Source of the DNA: Circinella minor
Lineage: Eukaryota; Mucoromycota; Mucoromycetes; Mucorales; Lichtheimiaceae
Assembly: GCA_016758965.1 (NCBI GenBank)
Contig: JAEPRB010000508.1
Coordinates: 78 to 16,329 of the forward strand
DNA length: 16,252 nucleotides
Direction of reading: 5' to 3'
Below the pieces are notes generated by a model. The model did not search any database, was not told the origin of the DNA, and saw nothing but the letters and a program-made list of their open reading frames with translations. This document shows positions 1 through 16,098 of the stretch, piece by piece. The translations under genes and the position numbers were made by a program. The stretch's first letter is position 1. Each line of letters begins with the position of its first letter.

Positions 1-2817
1 AAAACAGAACACGCGTAATTTTTTTTTTAAAAAACTAATATTATTAAAAAAAAAAAAAAAAAGTCAAAAGATTAGTGAAAAAACTTCTGATTTAACACCC
101 CCACCATCACAACAAACCGAATCCATGCAATCAGAAGAACAACAATCACAACCAAAAGAAGAAAAAGAAGAAAAAAAAAAGAAATCGATTGAACCTACTT
201 TATCTTCACCATCTTTAGTACGAGAAGAATCACAACAACAACAAGAACCTGAACCTATGTCAGATCAATCACTGACAGAGAAATCGTTTCATTCTTTGGA
301 ATTATCACAACAAAAACAAGAACAAACAAAACATGAATCATCATCGAAAGAACAACCTTTATTACAATCACAACCATTAAAAGAAGAATCTGTAGAAGAA
401 ATCCCATCATCCGAGGATATAAAAACACCATCAACAAAATCTATTCCTCCTACAGTCACTCCATCAAATGGACCTGTATCAACTAAAACAACAACAACGA
501 ATAATGTAAACGGTTTACCCACAACACCATTAAAAAATAATGAACCTACTACACCCTCATCACCCCATACGGCTGGAAATTTAAAGAAGAAGGTAAGAAG
601 GAAAAAAAGGGATGGATAAACAAAAAGAAAAAGAAAAAAAAATATATATTTTTATATGAAAAGAAAAGGTTCTTTTCCATTGATTTATATATATATATAT
701 ATATATACATGATAGACAAGAACAGCATCCCCTTCTCCTTCATTATCACGATTAAATGCGAATATGACACGCGATCAAGTTAAATATAGTGGTGCCATTA
801 TGCGTAATTTGAAAAAACACAGAGATGCAGCACCTTTTTTACATCCTGTGGATTATATGAAATTGAATGTACCTGATTATCCAAAAATTATCAAACATCC
901 TATGGATTTGAATACAGTAGATCGTAAATTAGTACATGGTGACTATGAGGATGTGGAAGATTTTATTTCAGATGTTCGACTTGTTTTTAGTAATTGTTAC
1001 AAGTTTAATGGTCCTGAAGCCATGATTTCTATGCTTTGTCAAAATGTGGAATCTGCTTTTGAAAAGAGTTTGAGACAAATGCCATTATCGAAAGAGGTAT
1101 ATATATATATAAAGGAGAGGGATAAAAACAGAGGAATGCTTTATTTATATTTGTTTATTTTTATTTTAGCCATTGTCACCACGACCTAGTCCAATGGCAG
1201 ATGGTAAAGATAGTATTCATCCTATTAGTAAATTATCACAAAAACGTGCTCGTTCACCCATTCAAACCATGCGACGTATATCTGAAGATGTACGACCTAA
1301 ACGAGAAATTCATCCACCTCCTTCTAAAGATTATCCTGAACCAATGACCAAACGTCGTAATCCAAGAAAAAATGATATTCAAATGAAATTTTGTACACAA
1401 GTACTTCGAGAATTACGCAAGTCAAAGTATAGAAATATTAATTACCCATTTTTACATCCAGTCGATATTGTTGCACTTAATATTCCAGATTATCCATCGA
1501 TTGTGAAACATCCCATGGATTTATCCACCATTGAAAGAAAATTACAAGAAGGAGATTATGATAATGCCGATGAATTTGCAAGTGATATTCGATTAATGTT
1601 TCATAATTGTTACTTATATAATCCTCCTGTTACTCCAGTGAATAAAATGGGTCATGAATTGGAAAAAGTATTTGAAGATAAATGGAAACAAAAACCAGAA
1701 CCTGCTCCACCAGAACCTGAAAAACGTCCTACACCTCCACCTCCACCAGCAGCACCTATTCGAGCACCTCCAAAAGAAGAATTTGTTGAAGAAGTAGAAT
1801 CGGAAGGGGATGGTAAACTTTAATTATTTGAGTTGGGGAGGGGGGTTTTTTGAATAATTTGTATATAAAATAATAACTTTTTATTATTATTTTGAAAATA
1901 GATCGTGATTCAAAGATTGCTGAATTGGAACGTACTGTAGCTGCTATTACACAACAAATTAATTCTATGAAATCTACAAAGAGAAAGAAACCTGAACGAG
2001 GTACAAGTAAAGCTACACGTGGAGGACGATCGGCACCTACAAAAGAAAAGAAATCATCGACTGCTCCTGCTGAAAAACGACGACGTGTAGCAAAACCTAA
2101 AAAAGAAGAATTACCTGAATTTACATTTGAACAAAAGAAAGATCTTAGTGAACGTATTAATAATTTGACAGGTGATAAATTGAATACGGTTGTAAGCATT
2201 ATTCAAAGTTCAATGCCTAATTTAGATGGAGTAAGTTATTTTTTTATTTTATTGTATTTTTTTGGATTTGAGATAGAAGGGTTTGAGGGGTGTTTTTTTT
2301 TTTTATTAAAAGTTTTGGATATTAAAAAAAAAATTATATATATATATATATATATAATAGCAAGGACAAGAGGAAATTGTATTGGATATTGATTCACTGG
2401 ATCGTCGGACACTATACAGTTTGCATGAATTTGTTACTGGGAAATCCATGTTACCAAAAAAACCAACTGCAAGACGAGCAAGAACACATTACTCGGAACA
2501 TGAATCAAATCAAAAAATTAAAGCATTGGAACAAACTTTAGAAAAGTTTAAGGAACAAAATGCTGGTAAGATTGGGAAAGGCACAGTGGGGGGGGGAGGG
2601 GGAATGATTCTATTGATAAGAAATTCATTATTATTATTTTTTTCATTTATTATATATAATAGCTGGAGGATCAAGTGGTAATGTTCAACAACATCAACAA
2701 TCACATCATCATCATCATCAATCCCATCGAACACAACATTCTTCAAGTGAGAGTGATTCAGAAAGTTCATCTGGATCAGATTCAGATGATTCAGGAAGTA
2801 GCTCAGATAACATGTAG
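1..2817 (+). CDS. bdf1: BET-family double bromodomain protein (Bdf1-like), 5'-partial
   Basis: Chromatin reader that binds acetylated histone tails through two bromodomains. Fungal Bdf1 acts with TFIID and SWR1. Exons that keep one frame are 64-592, 716-1096, 1170-1812, 1902-2230, 2361-2565 and 2663-2817. Counting from the ATG at 125 gives 726 residues. Bromodomain 1 is about 176-277 (APFLHPVD, acetyl-lysine-binding Asn254 in NCYKFN). Bromodomain 2 is about 353-457 (YPFLHPVD, Asn434 in NCYLYN). A basic linker (KRRNPRK), a proline-rich stretch (about 458-490), a short coiled coil and an ET domain (about 568-635, split by an intron at 2231-2360) follow, then His- and Ser/Asp-rich tails. The frame stays open upstream of ATG 125 with protein-like sequence. 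A likely intron at 15-63 (GT, CTAAT branch site at 35-39, AG) suggests that the true start lies left of the window. The paired bromodomain plus ET order makes the family assignment secure; the start is not. Confidence 0.93.
15..63 (+). other. Probable 49-nt intron at the truncated 5' end of bdf1
   Basis: GT at 15-16, a branch-site-like CTAAT at 35-39 and AG at 62-63, with a T/A-rich body. Splicing joins bases 1-14 to 64 in the frame used by the ATG at 125, with no stop codon. Other acceptors at 70 or 75 are possible, so the exact 3' border is unsure. Confidence 0.5.
686..707. repeat. (TA)11 in bdf1 intron 593-715
   Basis: TA x 11, 8 nt before the exon at 716. Confidence 0.9.
2335..2356. repeat. 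(TA)11 in bdf1 intron 2231-2360
   Basis: TA x 11, only 4 nt before the exon at 2361. Confidence 0.9.
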
Positions 2818-3395: not shown

Positions 3396-4755
3396 TTAAA
3401 AAGTTTCATCATCATAATCATCATGTTCTCCAGGTATCTCATCTTCGGGAGGTACTTCAAAACCCTCCTATAAAATAATTTTAAAAGAATAAATCATCTA
3501 ATTTATATCCCATTGAATCATTCCAAAAAATAAAAAAAATAAAAAGACAATTTACCTCTGTGCTATACAAAATAGCTTGAATTTCTTTCATAATGGGTAA
3601 TTCAACATGACCAGGTTCTTGTTGTTCAGCAGCATCAAGTTCTTCTTGTACTAAAATTTCAATATCACGCAATTTACCAAAATAAAAATCACGTTCCTTT
3701 TCCAATCCATCAACTGTCATTTTAAGTTCTGATATTTGTTTATTCAATTCAATAATCATAGAGGCGGATTGATCTGATCCACCACTACCAGCTGAAACAC
3801 GTCCACCTGTTGCAGTACGACTTGTGTTTCGTACTTAAAAATAAAAAAATTTTATTTAGTTTTCTTTTTTTTTTTGAACTTTGTTTCCAAAATTTATAAT
3901 AAATGATTTATTTACCTGTTGAACCAGCTGCTGTTCTACGAGTACCAGTAGCACGCATTCCACTACCTGCACCAGCACTAACACCAGGTTTACCCTTACG
4001 ACGTGCTAATGGGTCATATGCACCACCAGGGAAGTTTTGATCCCAATAACGTTTCACCCATTGCATAAACTCCAAATTATCTTGGAATTTACATTTCATC
4101 AATTTATCAACAGGTACCACTTTATCAACCCTGAACGAAAAAAAAAAAAAAAAAAGATGTTGTTGTTGAGTTGGAGTTGAACTAACTTTCTATTGGGTTC
4201 CATTCGTTTCTTTTTTTTTTTTTCCAAATTATAAATCAAAAAAAAAAACTTACTTGTGTTTATTAAAACAATGTTGTAATACCTTATAATTACCAACATA
4301 TTCATATTCATGTTTGGTATCAAACTTGACTTTACTTAAATGGACATCACCTAAACAATATTTTAAATTTATTATTCAATTCTTTTTTTTTTTTTTTTTT
4401 CCTTTTCCTTTCCTTTTTTTTTTTTCGGGGCTCATCCCCCCTTTTTTCCACTCATCCACTTTCCCCATCTCGTTGTTGTTTTTTTTTTCTTTCCTTACCA
4501 TAGATGGAATCCATAATTTGGCAATAGGCGGCACCTTTCATAATATTATCATTTCATATACATAGTATTAGACGTTATAAAATTCAAACAAATAAATTAT
4601 TTTCATCATGAAATAATCTCGAAAAAAAAGTCTATTTCCAGAAAAAAAAAAAAAAAAAACTTTTTTCTACCTGTGCCAGCTTGTTCAATTTTTGTATAAT
4701 TAAGATGACATAAATCGTTAATCCAAGCCAAAAGTTCAGTACGTGATTCACCCAT
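3396..4755 (-). CDS. EB1/Bim1-family microtubule plus-end tracking protein
   Basis: Tracks growing microtubule plus ends and recruits other +TIPs; yeast counterparts are Bim1 and Mal3. Six exons read 4755-4671, 4534-4499, 4350-4254, 4130-3916, 3833-3556 and 3467-3396 (260 residues, usual for the family). Residues 1 to about 105 form the calponin-homology domain (starts [14 protein letters not shown]; later [23 protein letters not shown]; ends with [11 protein letters not shown]). A Gly/Ser/Thr/Arg-rich linker runs to about 170. The coiled coil and EB-homology region is about 170-237 and contains [15 protein letters not shown]. The tail is acidic and ends DDYDDETF, close to the EEY/F ending of EB1 proteins. 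All splice borders use GT-AG and keep frame. Exon 2 is only 36 nt. Start: first ATG, matching the family N-terminus. Confidence 0.94.
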
Positions 4756-9109: not shown

Positions 9110-9481
9110 GTCTGTCTGTATGTCTGTATGTATTTAAATAGGGCATCTTCGCGTCATTCACGATCACCGTCACCTCCAAGACGTCGTCGTCGATCGCCTT
9201 CCTATAGTCGATCGCGTTCAGCATCTTATTCTTCACGTTCACGATCTCCTCGTCGATCCGTTTCTCCACCTCCAACAAAACATACCGTATTAATCACCAA
9301 CCTGACGCGTAATGTCACAGAAGAACATGTTAAGGAAATTTTCTCACAATTTGGTACTATTCGTGAAGTTGATTTTCCATTGAATACAAGATGTAAGACT
9401 TTTTTTTTTTTTTTTATTATTTCATTTTTCAGTTTTTTTTTTTTCAATCTATCGACTTTCTATATAGGATTGTTAATACTA

Positions 9482-9518
<37 letters not shown>

Positions 9519-10273
9519 AATTATTTAGTGAATACCAATAGTGGAAGAGCTTATATTGAATATGAAACAAGAGATGATATGGATAAAGCGATTAGTTATA
9601 TGAACGGGGTAAGATATATTTATATTTGATTGAGCTAACTGATTAGAATTATTACTATTACCAATATATTATGAAAGAAACAACCAAAAAAGAAAAAAAA
9701 AATACTAAAATAAATAAATAAATAAACAGGGTCAATTGGATGGTAAATATCTTGAAGTGGCTGTTGCACCACCTCCACGTCGTCGATCACCATCACCAGC
9801 TCCTCGTCGTAGAAGTAAGTCAATGAAAAGAAAAGAAAGGAATTAAAAAAATGGGAATTTATTAATAACTTTATATTTATATAGGATATTCGCCTCCTCC
9901 ACGTTATCGACGTGCCCCACCTCCACGTATGCGTCGTGATCGATATCGTCCTGGTCGTCGATCATCTCCATCGCGTTCTCGTTCCCCTCCACCACGTCGT
10001 GGTCGTCGTTACTCATCTTATTCACGTAGTCGAAGTTACTCTCCACGTCGTAGTTATTCTCGCAGTCGTAGGTATTCAAGTGACAGAAGTTATTCTCGTG
10101 GACGTAGTTATTCTCGAAGCCGTTCGCCACGCAGTCGTAGCCGTAGCCGTAGCCAAAGTTATGATAGCCGAGATTATAGCAGAAGTCGAAGTGTATCACC
10201 TATTCCCAAAGGTTCTTCAAGTCGTGCAAGAAGTCGAAGTCCTATAAGCCGAAGCCCTAGTCCCAGACGTTAA
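9014..10273 (+). CDS. RNPS1: RNPS1-like RRM/RS-domain splicing factor (EJC/ASAP periphery)
   Basis: RNA-binding, Ser/Arg-rich splicing activator; RNPS1 joins SAP18 and Acinus/Pinin in ASAP/PSAP complexes at the exon junction complex. Exons: 9014-9015 (AT of the start codon), 9142-9392, 9529-9608, 9730-9814 and 9885-10273, giving 268 residues. An N-terminal RS stretch (1-46) leads into one RRM (about 47-125) with RNP2 VLITNL, the RNPS1-like LTRNVTEEHVKEIFSQFG, RNP1 GRAYIEY, and GGQLDGKYLEVAVAPPPRR. The C-terminal half is Pro/Arg- then RS-repeat-rich (SYSRSRS units), expected to be phosphorylated by SR kinases. A donor at 9016 and acceptor ending at 9141 join AT to GGCA to make ATG GCA. The alternative is an unspliced start at ATG 9128 (MYLNRASS), less likely because that stretch looks like an intron end. 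A general SR protein is the alternative identity. Confidence 0.9.
9064..9109. repeat. Compound (CA)12-(TA)n microsatellite in RNPS1-like intron 1
   Basis: CA x 12 at 9065-9088 is followed by a TA tract ending near 9109, then TGTC/TGTA repeats, all within the first intron. Confidence 0.9.
9485..9512. repeat. (TA)14 in RNPS1-like intron 2
   Basis: TA x 14, ending 16 nt before the exon at 9529. Confidence 0.9.
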
Positions 10274-10669: not shown

Positions 10670-10954
10670 TTAATTAAAGTAAGTGGATAAACGTTCCACT
10701 ACATGAGTCATAGAAGGTCGCTATTAAATAGAATAAGAGTCATGATCAATTTTTTTTATTTTTCATGGTTAAAAAATATCAAGTGAAATGGGTATATATA
10801 TATTATCTTACCAGTCGTGAATCACCTTCCCACATTTCAGTAATAAGCACCAATAAATTACGTGGGTAATAATTTATAAGTTTAGCAAGTGGAGGTCGAC
10901 AATCTTCATCTCTCACTTTGACATATAATTGATGCTCGGATAAATCTAGTAAAG

Positions 10955-10994
<40 letters not shown>

Positions 10995-11708
10995 TCAATA
11001 TTATGATACCAAGAGAAACTACTTTCCCCTCATCCGTTTCTCTAAAGATGATCTTATTTTAATACCTTGGTATGGATATCCATATTCGTTCCAAGTTAAG
11101 ATTTCCCAAAATATAAGACCGCATGCATAAACCTATAAGCAATATACATCATGTGGCATACAATCGGGGTGTTATGTTAGATTAGAAATAATAACAATAA
11201 TAATAATAATAATAATAAGAATCACTTGCATCGACTTTTTCCGTGTAACTTGGTTTTTGTGACCAAAACTCTGGAGCTTGCCAATTCGGAGTACCACATT
11301 GAGTATGCATCATTGCATTGGATTTAGGTCTTATACGAGCTAATCCAAAATCATTCACCTTGGCGCGGTCATCTCCGGAAATCTAAAACATTTATATCTT
11401 TCTATATCAAAATACAATTTTCTTCGCTTTCGAATAGATAATATAATATATATCTACATACTAATATATTCATTGATTTTAAATCACGATGGATAATAGA
11501 TGGGCGTCGTTGATGAAGATATGATACACCTAAAGCAATATCATACATATACATGACTTGCTGCGCAAAAGTTGGCTTTTTATATTTTCTTATAACATCG
11601 AATAAATCTCCTTTTGTACATAACTCTGTAATAATACAAAGATGTTGTGGATTTGTACATACACCAATGAATCGAATCACGTTTTCATGTCGCAGTTGTC
11701 TATATCAT

Positions 11709-11739
<31 letters not shown>

Positions 11740-12518
11740 CATGAATCCTTTTTTTTTCCTTGGCAAGAAACAAAGACCTATCATTTTTACTAATCACTTC
11801 TCTCTTATTCTCTCGTTTTGAAATCTCCTACTTACTTTAATACTTGAATTTCATGTTTAATTTCTTGTAAATCCATTTCATTAAATTGAGTAAGACGTAG
11901 TTCACCAATAGCCACAGGTTCCCCTTTATGCATTCCAGCATAACAATCCTTAAATCCTCCACAACCTAAACGTCGACCAATTTGTAACTCATGATAAGGG
12001 ATATCTAATCCATGACTTCCATCTAAAAATAATGCTGAAAATTCACGCGAATTCAATTCCAATCTTTGTTGTTCGGCTGTCAAAGAAGAGACAGGCTGTA
12101 ATTCATCATCAAAAAGTAGAGGTGTAGAAGGTGCTGGAATAGGTCGTGTGTCTTCTTTCTAAAAAATATATATAAATGACCCATTATAGTGTATAAGAAG
12201 TGATCCTCTATTCTTGTTTTGTGTGGCATCCTTTTGCTTTTATATATACTTTACCCAATTAATTAATCCTTCAATCAAATCTGTTTTAGTTCCTTCAGTA
12301 GAAAGACCTCTATCTTGACAAAATTGAACAAGATCCGCAAGTACCATTCGATCAAGGTAGTGCCGGTCAACGGACTACATTATTCACTTTTAGTAATTTT
12401 TTTTTTTTTTTTAAGAGAAACAACACACAGACCCTAATTTTATTTATATACGAAATAAATATATTATATTTACCTCTAATGAAGGATCAATATGTCGTTG
12501 TGTCGTTTTATATATCAT
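10670..12518 (-). CDS. SAP-like domain plus TKL-type protein kinase with displaced catalytic lysine
   Basis: Predicted Ser/Thr (TKL-group) kinase, 376 residues. Exons: 12518-12474, 12374-12255, 12158-11836, 11699-11462, 11382-11230, 11132-11066, 10945-10812 and 10720-10670. Residues about 20-55 resemble a SAP motif (LADLVQFCQDRGLSTEGTK, then DLIEGLI), a putative DNA/RNA-binding helix pair. The kinase domain spans about 110-370: glycine loop LGCGGFKDCYAG (119-130), beta-3 VAIGEL (137-142) with Gly140 where lysine is expected, catalytic HRDLKSMN (233-240), NDFG (252-255), a WQAPEFW activation-segment end, and VDVYACGLIFWEI. Lys125 in the glycine loop is placed as in WNK kinases and may replace the beta-3 lysine. 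Exon 5 to exon 6 keeps frame only with a GC-AG intron. The first exon is the least certain part. Substrate and pathway are unknown. Confidence 0.88.
10956..10977. repeat. (TA)11 in kinase intron 6
   Basis: TA x 11, 10 nt from the next exon on the minus strand, next to a (GA)n tract at about 10977-10994. Confidence 0.9.
11133..11229 (-). other. GC-AG intron in the kinase gene
   Basis: Minus-strand donor reads GTCGAT|GCAAGT and acceptor TTATAG|GTTTAT. Joining them gives VDVYACGLIFWEI, the expected kinase sequence. Using the nearby GT at 11225 shifts the frame and destroys the match. GCAAGT is the common form of a GC donor. The intron holds an (AAT)n tract. Confidence 0.8.
11709..11730. repeat. 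(TA)11 in kinase intron 3
   Basis: TA x 11, 9 nt from the next exon on the minus strand. Confidence 0.9.
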
Positions 12519-13805: not shown

Positions 13806-14544
13806 TTACATGGGAAGATCAAACATAAAACTATCACCACCTTTTTTGCTGTTACTGTTACTGCTACTACTACTACTATTGTTACTACTACTTGTAGTAG
13901 CTGTCGTCGTCGTGGTTGTTGTTTGACCCATGGTAGTATTCGTACCATTAGGTTTTGTAAACAATGGATTCTTACTAAAAGATAATCGAATACCTCCTTT
14001 CACTGAATTACTCAATGTATGACCTTGTAATTCATTCATTGCTTGAGTTGCATAAACAACATCTTCAAATTCGACAAAACACATGGGACCTTGTTGATTT
14101 TTGGAACGGAATAACAATCTTTTAAAATTGATACATTTGGAAAACAATTGACGTAATTCATCCTCACTTGTAAAAGGGGGTAAGTTACCAACATACAATG
14201 TATTACAGGGTGGATTTTGATCTGCAGGGTTGTTGCTATTACTATTACTGATACTACCTCGGAAATGAGTGGGAGATGGAATTCCTGTAGTTGTTGTAGG
14301 TGTGGATGGTCCATTACCAGTAGATGTTGATGCTGTTGTGATATTATTGTTATTGTTTGTTCCATTCGAATTATTATTATTATTATTATTATTATTGATC
14401 AACAAAGAGTTCATGCGTGAACTTAAAATGTCCGTATTGACGTGACCATTGGCTACAGCAGATTCGAAAAACGAAGATGAGTTTCCATTCGTAAGACGGT
14501 TATCTACAACAGGAGATGATTTTGAAAGGTAACCAAATGGATCA

Positions 14545-14576
<32 letters not shown>

Positions 14577-16098
14577 ATGCTGATGATTATGATTGGAATG
14601 TTGATGTTGATGATCCATTGCTCCAGGAACTGCTGTTGGAACTGCTGATGATGGATCTTGTTGTTGTTGTTGTTGTTGAACTAATCCTTGAATACCTACA
14701 CGATTTGTTGGACGTGGATATAAACTAAAAGCACGTGGAGAGACAACAAGATCGTTACTTCGTGCATCAAATGATTGTGAACGCAAATTGAAGAATGGAT
14801 CATTAAAGCCACCATTGGATGATGAGTTAAGTGAGGTAGATATTGTTGCTGTTGAAGTATTCAAACTATTTGAATTACTTGTGCTAGTAGTAGGAGTTGA
14901 TGAACCATTAGCCAGTGGATGGTCATTAAAAGGATCCGTCTTATAATCAGCAGGTGATAATAAATCGCTTGGTAAAGGCGAGAACGTATCATAAGCTGTC
15001 GGAGGAGGATGTAAACTCATCTTTCTTGACAAAATACTGAGCGGAGATGAACCAGTCTCCGCAGCGGCAGCAACAGCAGCAGCTGCTACCGCTGCTTGAT
15101 GATGATGGTGATGATGTTGAGAAGGTTGTTGTTGATGTATATGATGTTGATGAATATTATGTTGAGAATGCTGAAGTTGTGAAGGTGTTTGATGAAGTGG
15201 ATGCTGTGATGATGATTGTTGAGAATGATGCTGTGTTTGTTGTTGTTGTTGTTGTTGTTGTTGTTGCTGTTGTTGAGCTGCTGCTGCTGCTGCTGCTGCC
15301 GCGGCAGAGGATCCACCTGAAATTGAAGGATGTGCGTTTGGTACAATTGAACCACGTTTAATATGCAGATTCTTCTTTGCCATTTCCGCTTTGAGCACAG
15401 AGCCTTTGTCATTGTCGATCCTTTTACCACTTAATACTTCAACAGCTTCCAAAGCTTCTAAACGTGTACGGAACCTTGCAAATCCAATCTATTCATTTTT
15501 ATTTTTAAATTAATTCATTTGCCTTTAATATAATTTTGTTTGGTACCTAAATTTTCATAAAAAAAAAAAAAAAAAAAAAAAAAATTTGCAAATTTACCAT
15601 TTGTTTTTTGTTTATTCCATTATTCATATTCATGGCATTTAATAGATTATTATTATTATTATTATTATTATTGGTACTATTCATATTATTCGTGGATGAT
15701 GATGTAGATGATGCTGTAGTAATAGTATGTGTTGCAGTTGTATTGAGAGTGGTTGAAATATTATTCATTGATGTAGTAGTAGTATTTTCGTCGTCCTGAT
15801 CCTTACAATGCCATTTCAAAGAAGCAGCTTCAAAACCAGGTGAAAAAGTAAACATATTTTGAAACTCTCGTTCCAACATATCGTCTGGAAAACCAACTAC
15901 AAAGATGGTTGTTACATCCTCTGGATTACTACTTATACCATTGGAAGCATGATGTTGTGGCTGTGATGGTGGAGGTGAACAATTATTAGGTGGAAAGAAT
16001 GATGATGCTGGAGATGCAGAAAGTGGATGCACAATACGAAAATCGTTTGGAGCGACCGAGAAGGCCGAGCTACCCATTAGGGAAGTTTCAGTTGTCAT
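13806..16098 (-). CDS. Whi3-like two-RRM RNA-binding protein with polyQ/polyN tracts
   Basis: Likely cytoplasmic mRNA-binding regulator; yeast Whi3 binds CLN3 mRNA, and in Ashbya the polyQ tract drives condensates. Two exons, 16098-15598 and 15488-13806, give 727 residues; the intron is 109 nt, GT-AG, in phase 0. RRM1 begins at about 62 ([19 protein letters not shown]), is interrupted by an Asn/Ser/Thr-rich insert at about 100-167, and resumes at 168 with [16 protein letters not shown], ending near 212. Then come polyAla (229-238), 13 Gln (239-251), His/Gln-rich segments, and nine Asn near 14370-14396. The C-terminal RRM2 (about 595-680) is Whi3-like: [33 protein letters not shown]. The protein ends MFDLPM. 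The start is the first in-frame ATG; upstream out-of-frame ATGs exist. A general RBPMS/Whi3-superfamily name is the cautious option. Confidence 0.9.
15237..15305 (-). repeat. Coding (CAA)n/(GCA)n tracts: polyQ next to polyA
   Basis: Thirteen Gln codons, nearly all CAA, directly follow ten Ala codons, mostly GCA. Near-pure codon repeats suggest growth by slippage, so length is probably variable between strains. Confidence 0.9.
15559..15584. repeat. Run of 26 A in the Whi3-like intron
   Basis: On the transcribed strand this is U26 starting 13 nt after the exon end, just downstream of the 5' splice site. It may act as a U-rich splicing aid (TIA-1/Nam8 type), which is inference. Confidence 0.85.
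15646..15672 (-). repeat. Coding (AAT)9: polyAsn inside the RRM1 insert
   Basis: Nine identical Asn codons. An equally long pure tract encodes nine Asn at 14370-14396 in exon 2. Confidence 0.9.

Follow-up and report, generated by a model that had tools for sequence, protein, structure and literature searches.

The stretch considered here, i.e., the window, is 16,252 nucleotides of contig JAEPRB010000508.1 of the fungus Circinella minor (Mucorales, Lichtheimiaceae), from an assembly of 46.6 Mb in 619 contigs. On its minus strand, from 12518 to 10670, lies a gene of eight exons whose predicted product is a protein kinase of 376 residues, with a single terminal stop. The lysine which positions adenosine triphosphate (ATP) in kinases, usually found on strand beta-3, is missing from that place in this protein, and a lysine is found instead within the glycine loop, at residue 125, as is seen also with the WNK kinases, which in humans sense salt. 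Probably, then, this is a fungal SAP-domain kinase of the TKL group, single-copy in this genome, whose ATP-positioning lysine has left beta-3 and is now Lys125, a move most likely made independently of WNK.

Exon structure and the displaced lysine

The exons, in order of translation, are the following.

12474..12518, minus strand: exon 1, with the start ATG at 12518 and an in-frame GTAAAT donor; proteins P0001 and P0002 begin likewise
12255..12374, minus strand: exon 2, SAP domain, with an AG acceptor and a GTAAAG donor; residues 24-50 match PF02037
11836..12158, minus strand: exon 3, linker, glycine loop with Lys125, beta-3 with Gly140 and helix C with Glu158
11462..11699, minus strand: exon 4, hinge region and the catalytic loop HRDLKSMN
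11230..11382, minus strand: exon 5, NDFG and GTPNWQAPE, with a GCAAGT donor
11066..11132, minus strand: exon 6, the segment VYACGLIFWEIL
10812..10945, minus strand: exon 7, C-lobe
10670..10720, minus strand: exon 8, RPSMTHVVERLSTYFN followed by the stop codon

The introns are GT-AG except for the one 3' of exon 5, which is GC-AG, and across which the frame of exon 5 runs on into DVYACG, as it does also in P0001 and P0002. Pfam recognizes two domains within the 376-residue protein, a SAP domain at residues 24-50 (25.3 bits, with a cut-off of 23.9) and a protein kinase domain spanning roughly residues 113-371.

Exon 3, which reads LGCGGFKDCYAGMHKGEPVAIGEL, is bordered by an AG acceptor before 12158 and a GTAAGT donor after 11836, and is exactly the interval marked by an earlier, sequence-only reading of this DNA. 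That reading had Lys125 in place of the third loop glycine and Gly140 in place of the beta-3 lysine, and its residue numbers are right: the glycine loop is GCGGFKDCY, with Lys125 where the third glycine would be, and beta-3 is VAIGEL, with Gly140 at the usual lysine position. The remaining motifs, which it had described as intact, are found as well, HRDLKSMN in exon 4 and both NDFG and APE in exon 5. Helix-C Glu158, HRD Asp235, Asn240 and DFG Asp253 all are in place. Upon alignment with human WNK1, using a sequence identical to that of PDB 5w7t across 262 residues, K233 and C250 of WNK1 share columns with K125 and G140 of the Circinella protein.

Because both motifs are within exon 3, splicing can neither create nor remove the change. 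The notion of an artefact, that is, of a wrong gene model or a sequencing error, conflicts as well with the identical letters that are present in a 95%-identical protein of Zychaea mexicana, which is a separate record, and family-wide. The Zychaea protein (Mucorales, Lichtheimiaceae) is the nearest relative among the matches listed. With the single exon, this protein and the 275 relatives described next all in agreement, sequencing error and mis-splicing are ruled out, and what probability remains to an artefact is negligible.

Those relatives come from three protein searches (E up to 0.001) which returned 651, 665 and 1656 proteins, with the best 120 of each taken; the third scored just those 7987 candidates that had most words in common. 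Pooling gives 282 distinct proteins, from which seven (P0157, P0158 and P0165-P0169), which have a normal beta-3 lysine, no loop lysine, and a position outside of the family clade, are subtracted, leaving 275. A loop lysine is found in 270 of the 271 rows that have a letter there, the sole exception, P0152, being a sequence that begins inside of the loop. At the beta-3 site are glycine in 121, alanine in 67, serine in 55, cysteine in 23, threonine in one and glutamine in one, along with seven gaps, which is to say a small residue in 266 of 268 rows. Homologues keeping a beta-3 lysine, such as would point to a sequence error, were sought, and the family rows contain none (0/268). In the threonine and glutamine cases, P0112 and P0059, inspection of the rows suggests that the beta-3 segment is absent from the predicted protein. 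Scanning for the motif separately in the 113 proteins that were new in the third search shows the loop lysine in all of them, with alanine (49), serine (44) or cysteine (20) at beta-3. Across the 275 relatives, the helix-C glutamate is present in 269 of 270, the HRD aspartate in 264 of 265, the catalytic-loop asparagine in 265 of 265, and the DFG aspartate in 270 of 270. A WNK-like relocation, as originally proposed for one protein, thus is near-invariant over a family. Within its own genome the segment from loop to helix C gives one match (E up to 1), whereas two or more family proteins are listed for some other fungi, e.g., Mucor fragilis.

Affinity with TKL kinases and with WNKs

Trees were computed without the loop-lysine and beta-3 columns. 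The first had long branches, including those of EGFR and of own-genome kinases, and was rebuilt minus seven rows; in the third, WNK3 and OSR1 were added and MAP3K12 was restored. The family is one clade (support 100/100) and the WNKs are another, separate clade (100/99), with a split between TKL plus the family and WNK plus STE that has a support of 89/91 in the first tree and 96/96 in the third. Membership in the WNKs is ruled out by this standing apart of the two clades, with the family not being placed within WNKs; a sister relation is disfavoured only. The ten lysine-bearing TKLs in the tree all have their lysine at beta-3, and none has a loop lysine.

Profile scores, with the same two columns removed, are 166-223 bits for the ten TKLs, 134-159 for three WNKs and 98 for PAK1, though, as a family member was the query that yielded seven of those TKLs, the TKL lead over WNK is partly a matter of selection. 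The nearest solved kinases by sequence are plant CTR1 (PDB 3ppz), MAP3K12, TNNI3K and RAF, with an EGFR construct ranking first. A fold search has CTR1 and TNNI3K on top, and a second look has CTR1 on top with the remaining rows mostly tyrosine kinases; WNK entries are absent from the 50 rows listed of each fold search, which is evidence neither way. The split in the third tree, the two-column-free scores, given their biased choice of TKLs, and the top fold match to CTR1 are all in keeping with the sequence-only view that the kinase is TKL and not WNK. Outside of the changed residues, that is, assignment of the family to TKL is supported, at the level of the group only.

As a comparison of systems, the family is like the WNKs (human WNK1, PDB 5w7t) in possessing, in matching columns, a loop lysine, no beta-3 lysine, the helix-C glutamate, HRD, and the Asp and Gly of DFG. 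It differs from them in being on the TKL side in sequence, in having DFG rather than DLG or DMG, in having G/A/S/C at beta-3 rather than C/N, and, as regards the Circinella protein, in its SAP domain. With the TKLs (CTR1, MAP3K12, TNNI3K, RAF) it shares sequence and fold matches as well as a side of the tree, except that TNNI3K is not in the tree, but unlike active TKLs it lacks their conserved beta-3 lysine.

The SAP domain is of a DNA-binding type, and its presence would suggest action at DNA or chromatin, i.e., a nuclear role. Several findings, however, weigh against the reading that was offered at the outset. With regard to SAP, the domain is annotated, by precomputed Pfam, in 36 of the 120 best listed relatives of the first search; of nine distant members scanned (E up to 0.05), seven give no SAP match, and the matches in the other two, Coprinopsis P0263 and Rhodotorula P0197, are weak and below the Pfam cut-off. 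With regard to independence from WNK, approximately unbiased (AU) tests fail to reject the family and WNK as one clade (p 0.241, 0.147 and 0.211 over three trees), and the tree program warned, for the second and third trees, of long meeting WNK and STE branches.

These AU results would be expected to please a proponent of common descent, under which a single relocation, in a shared ancestor of WNK and the family, would account for both, with the TKL look being secondary. The identical two columns are changed in both groups, and it is the WNKs that rank next after TKLs in profile score. The best trees, though, place the family with lysine-bearing TKLs and WNK with STE kinases; all ten TKLs, biased though their choice was, outscore all three WNKs once the two columns are gone; and the family retains DFG while the four WNKs compared show DLG or DMG. 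Common descent is on balance improbable, and most likely the relocation arose independently of WNK. Independent evolution as suggested from the sequence alone is therefore what the tree favours, with the qualification that the AU tests leave a sister relation to WNK standing.

Distribution, earlier names and neighbouring genes

Members are found in Mucorales, in Mortierella relatives, in the arbuscular mycorrhizal Rhizophagus, Gigaspora and Ambispora, and in Calcarisporiella and Endogone, and are listed further for Basidiobolus, Massospora, Coemansia and Dispira, as well as for an aphelid, Amoeboaphelidium protococcarum (Aphelidiomycota). The transcriptome protein P0127, labelled Partr, we take to be from another aphelid, Paraphelidium. 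Basidiomycota members are from Rhodotorula, Phakopsora, Tilletia, Cryptococcus, Trametes and Coprinopsis, of which Tilletia, Phakopsora and Rhodotorula presumably belong to Ustilaginomycotina/Pucciniomycotina. Ascomycete names are not seen among the matches listed (best 120 per search), which is a description of those matches and not of ascomycetes as a whole. Fixation of the arrangement probably predates the divergence of the aphelid, the early-diverging fungi and the Basidiomycota that were sampled.

Judging from the alignment, Basidiomycota members and P0129 of Calcarisporiella have a helix C some four residues shorter than that of Mucoromycota-type members. Both types occur in Calcarisporiella, as P0031 and P0129, which would point to an ancient duplication followed by differential loss. 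As a separate observation, the family member P0113 of Furculomyces boomerangus has alanine at beta-3, and the same predicted protein carries PF01876, presumably the RNase P p30 family; this may be a real fusion or instead a joined gene model.

Some members already bear a database name, such as TKL protein kinase or TKL/TKL-ccin. Of those with the latter name, P0263 of Coprinopsis cinerea and P0197 of Rhodotorula toruloides belong by tree to the family, and the link rests on these two proteins rather than on every TKL-ccin protein. In the accessible portions of the expression, phosphoproteome and activation-screen tables in which TKL-ccin proteins appear, there is no remark upon the lysine. One such screen, for transcription activation in Laccaria, includes a TKL-ccin kinase among unconventional activators with nuclear localization (PMC5604158, in excerpt). 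We do not use that kinase as evidence, as its orthology is not established and as the authors, in the same excerpt, expect quite a few false positives. The fungi-specific lineage of kinases (FslK), as described in the available text of PMC3937382, resembles the family in being fungal and near TK/TKL. FslK, though, is reported there as lost in Ustilaginomycotina and Pucciniomycotina and as expanded in Agaricomycetes, and, with the family present in Tilletia, Phakopsora and Rhodotorula, it is set aside as an earlier description. A study of the kinases of Cryptococcus assigns three to TKL, and the word lysine does not occur in its main text.

A 2007 survey, in the part accessible, gives Wnk as the sole eukaryotic protein kinase (ePK) family that is functional though lacking a lysine at beta-3, and it also mentions a comparable charge shift, to arginine, in the CAK-chloro subfamily (PMC1821047). 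No description of a fungal TKL family with its lysine relocated was recognised within the open-access literature, as judged mostly by title and by the start of the abstract. What apparently is new, then, is that the WNK-type relocation of the lysine occurs in another kinase group, where it marks a fungal family that is both conserved and widespread.

Elsewhere in the window are the following.

764-2389, plus strand: BET-family gene, which we take to be Bdf1-like; adjacent frames encode two bromodomains and a BET domain
3484-3759, minus strand: EB1-like C-terminal motif (PF03271), probably part of a gene for a microtubule plus-end protein
9128-9538 and 9929-10273, plus strand: RRM match and an arginine- and serine-rich (RS-rich) frame, adjoining the kinase gene, probably a gene for an SR-type splicing factor
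13809-15452, minus strand: Gln/Asn/His-rich frame with an RRM domain, presumably Whi3-like
15550-16098: frame next to the preceding one, with a sub-cut-off Pfam match only

Catalysis, chloride and meaning

Mechanistically, the ATP-positioning lysine would have shifted from beta-3 to the last glycine of the loop, i.e., to the start of beta-2. From there Lys125 most likely contacts the alpha and beta phosphates of ATP and pairs with Glu158 of helix C, much as K233 does in WNK1, with the small residue at beta-3 leaving space for it. Catalysis otherwise would be standard, employing Asp235 of HRD, Asn240 and Asp253 of DFG, and presumably directed at serine/threonine.

This has precedents, given here from the accessible portions of the papers concerned. 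In WNK1 a beta-2 lysine stands in for the beta-3 one, and its mutation abolishes activity (PMC10211241). Likewise in protein O-mannose kinase (POMK) the equivalent of the beta-3 lysine lies on beta-2, and activity is lost when that lysine is mutated (PMC10211241). The HRD and DFG equivalents of POMK have migrated as well, whereas the family keeps canonical ones. Most directly, changing the beta-3 lysine of PKA to alanine and a loop glycine to lysine yields an enzyme about 400% as active as the wild type; with methionine or histidine at beta-3, the loop lysine does not result in similar activity (PMC5130182). It is the PKA-type pairing, of loop lysine with a small beta-3 residue, that is found in the family, including with alanine itself in 67 members. 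By analogy, the loop lysine would compensate for the missing beta-3 lysine.

The same missing lysine might instead mark a pseudokinase, that is, a scaffold, or an ATP-bound switch that does not transfer phosphoryl groups, in which the loop lysine merely stabilises the fold. The TKL group is said in the available text of a review to have the most pseudokinases, which predominate in plants and fungi (PMC10211241), and not one of the 268 family rows has lysine at beta-3. Set against this are the replacement lysine at the exact WNK position in 270 of 271 rows, the high activity of PKA with the same arrangement, and the near invariance of the helix-C glutamate, the HRD aspartate, the catalytic-loop asparagine and the DFG aspartate. 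Because these last residues are nearly invariant, a working kinase is the likelier prediction, in line with what the sequence-only reading had anticipated, and a pseudokinase is quite unlikely.

WNK1 binds chloride at its active site, which the unusual place of its lysine may permit, and the change L369F renders it chloride-insensitive (both from PMC7606576, as accessible). The family does not have the chloride-site leucine that is L369 in WNK1: the position is phenylalanine in the Circinella protein and in all 270 relatives with a letter there. As phenylalanine is natural to this position, inhibition by chloride of the WNK1 kind is not expected in the family. Two genuine WNKs are present in the same genome (G000:C18:52874-53515, or L019, and C44:170452-170979, or L020), with GKGAYK loops, VAWN at beta-3, and DMG-T where human WNK1 has DLG-L. 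Of the chloride-site leucines, two therefore are replaced in these fungal WNKs, and, with methionine at the DLG-leucine position in both, that leucine is not universal among WNKs. A more expansive idea is that the family, which extends across most of the fungal phyla sampled, independently reinvented the WNK active site, with the beta-3 cavity an ion or water regulatory site by which a chromatin SAP kinase senses ionic or osmotic state; this we consider doubtful, and unlikely overall.

A lysine relocated independently, and likely ATP-positioning in its new place, would if true represent a second independent, old and widespread family, making the lysine rearrangement a repeatable solution and not an accident. 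The reasons for the lysine's move could then be probed in a natural setting, namely what purpose the empty beta-3 site serves, why a small residue is required there, and whether the sensing of ions is a consequence of the geometry. Surveys that demand the VAIK lysine may misfile active fungal kinases as pseudokinases, and the family would offer a fungal active site unlike the one in canonical human kinases.
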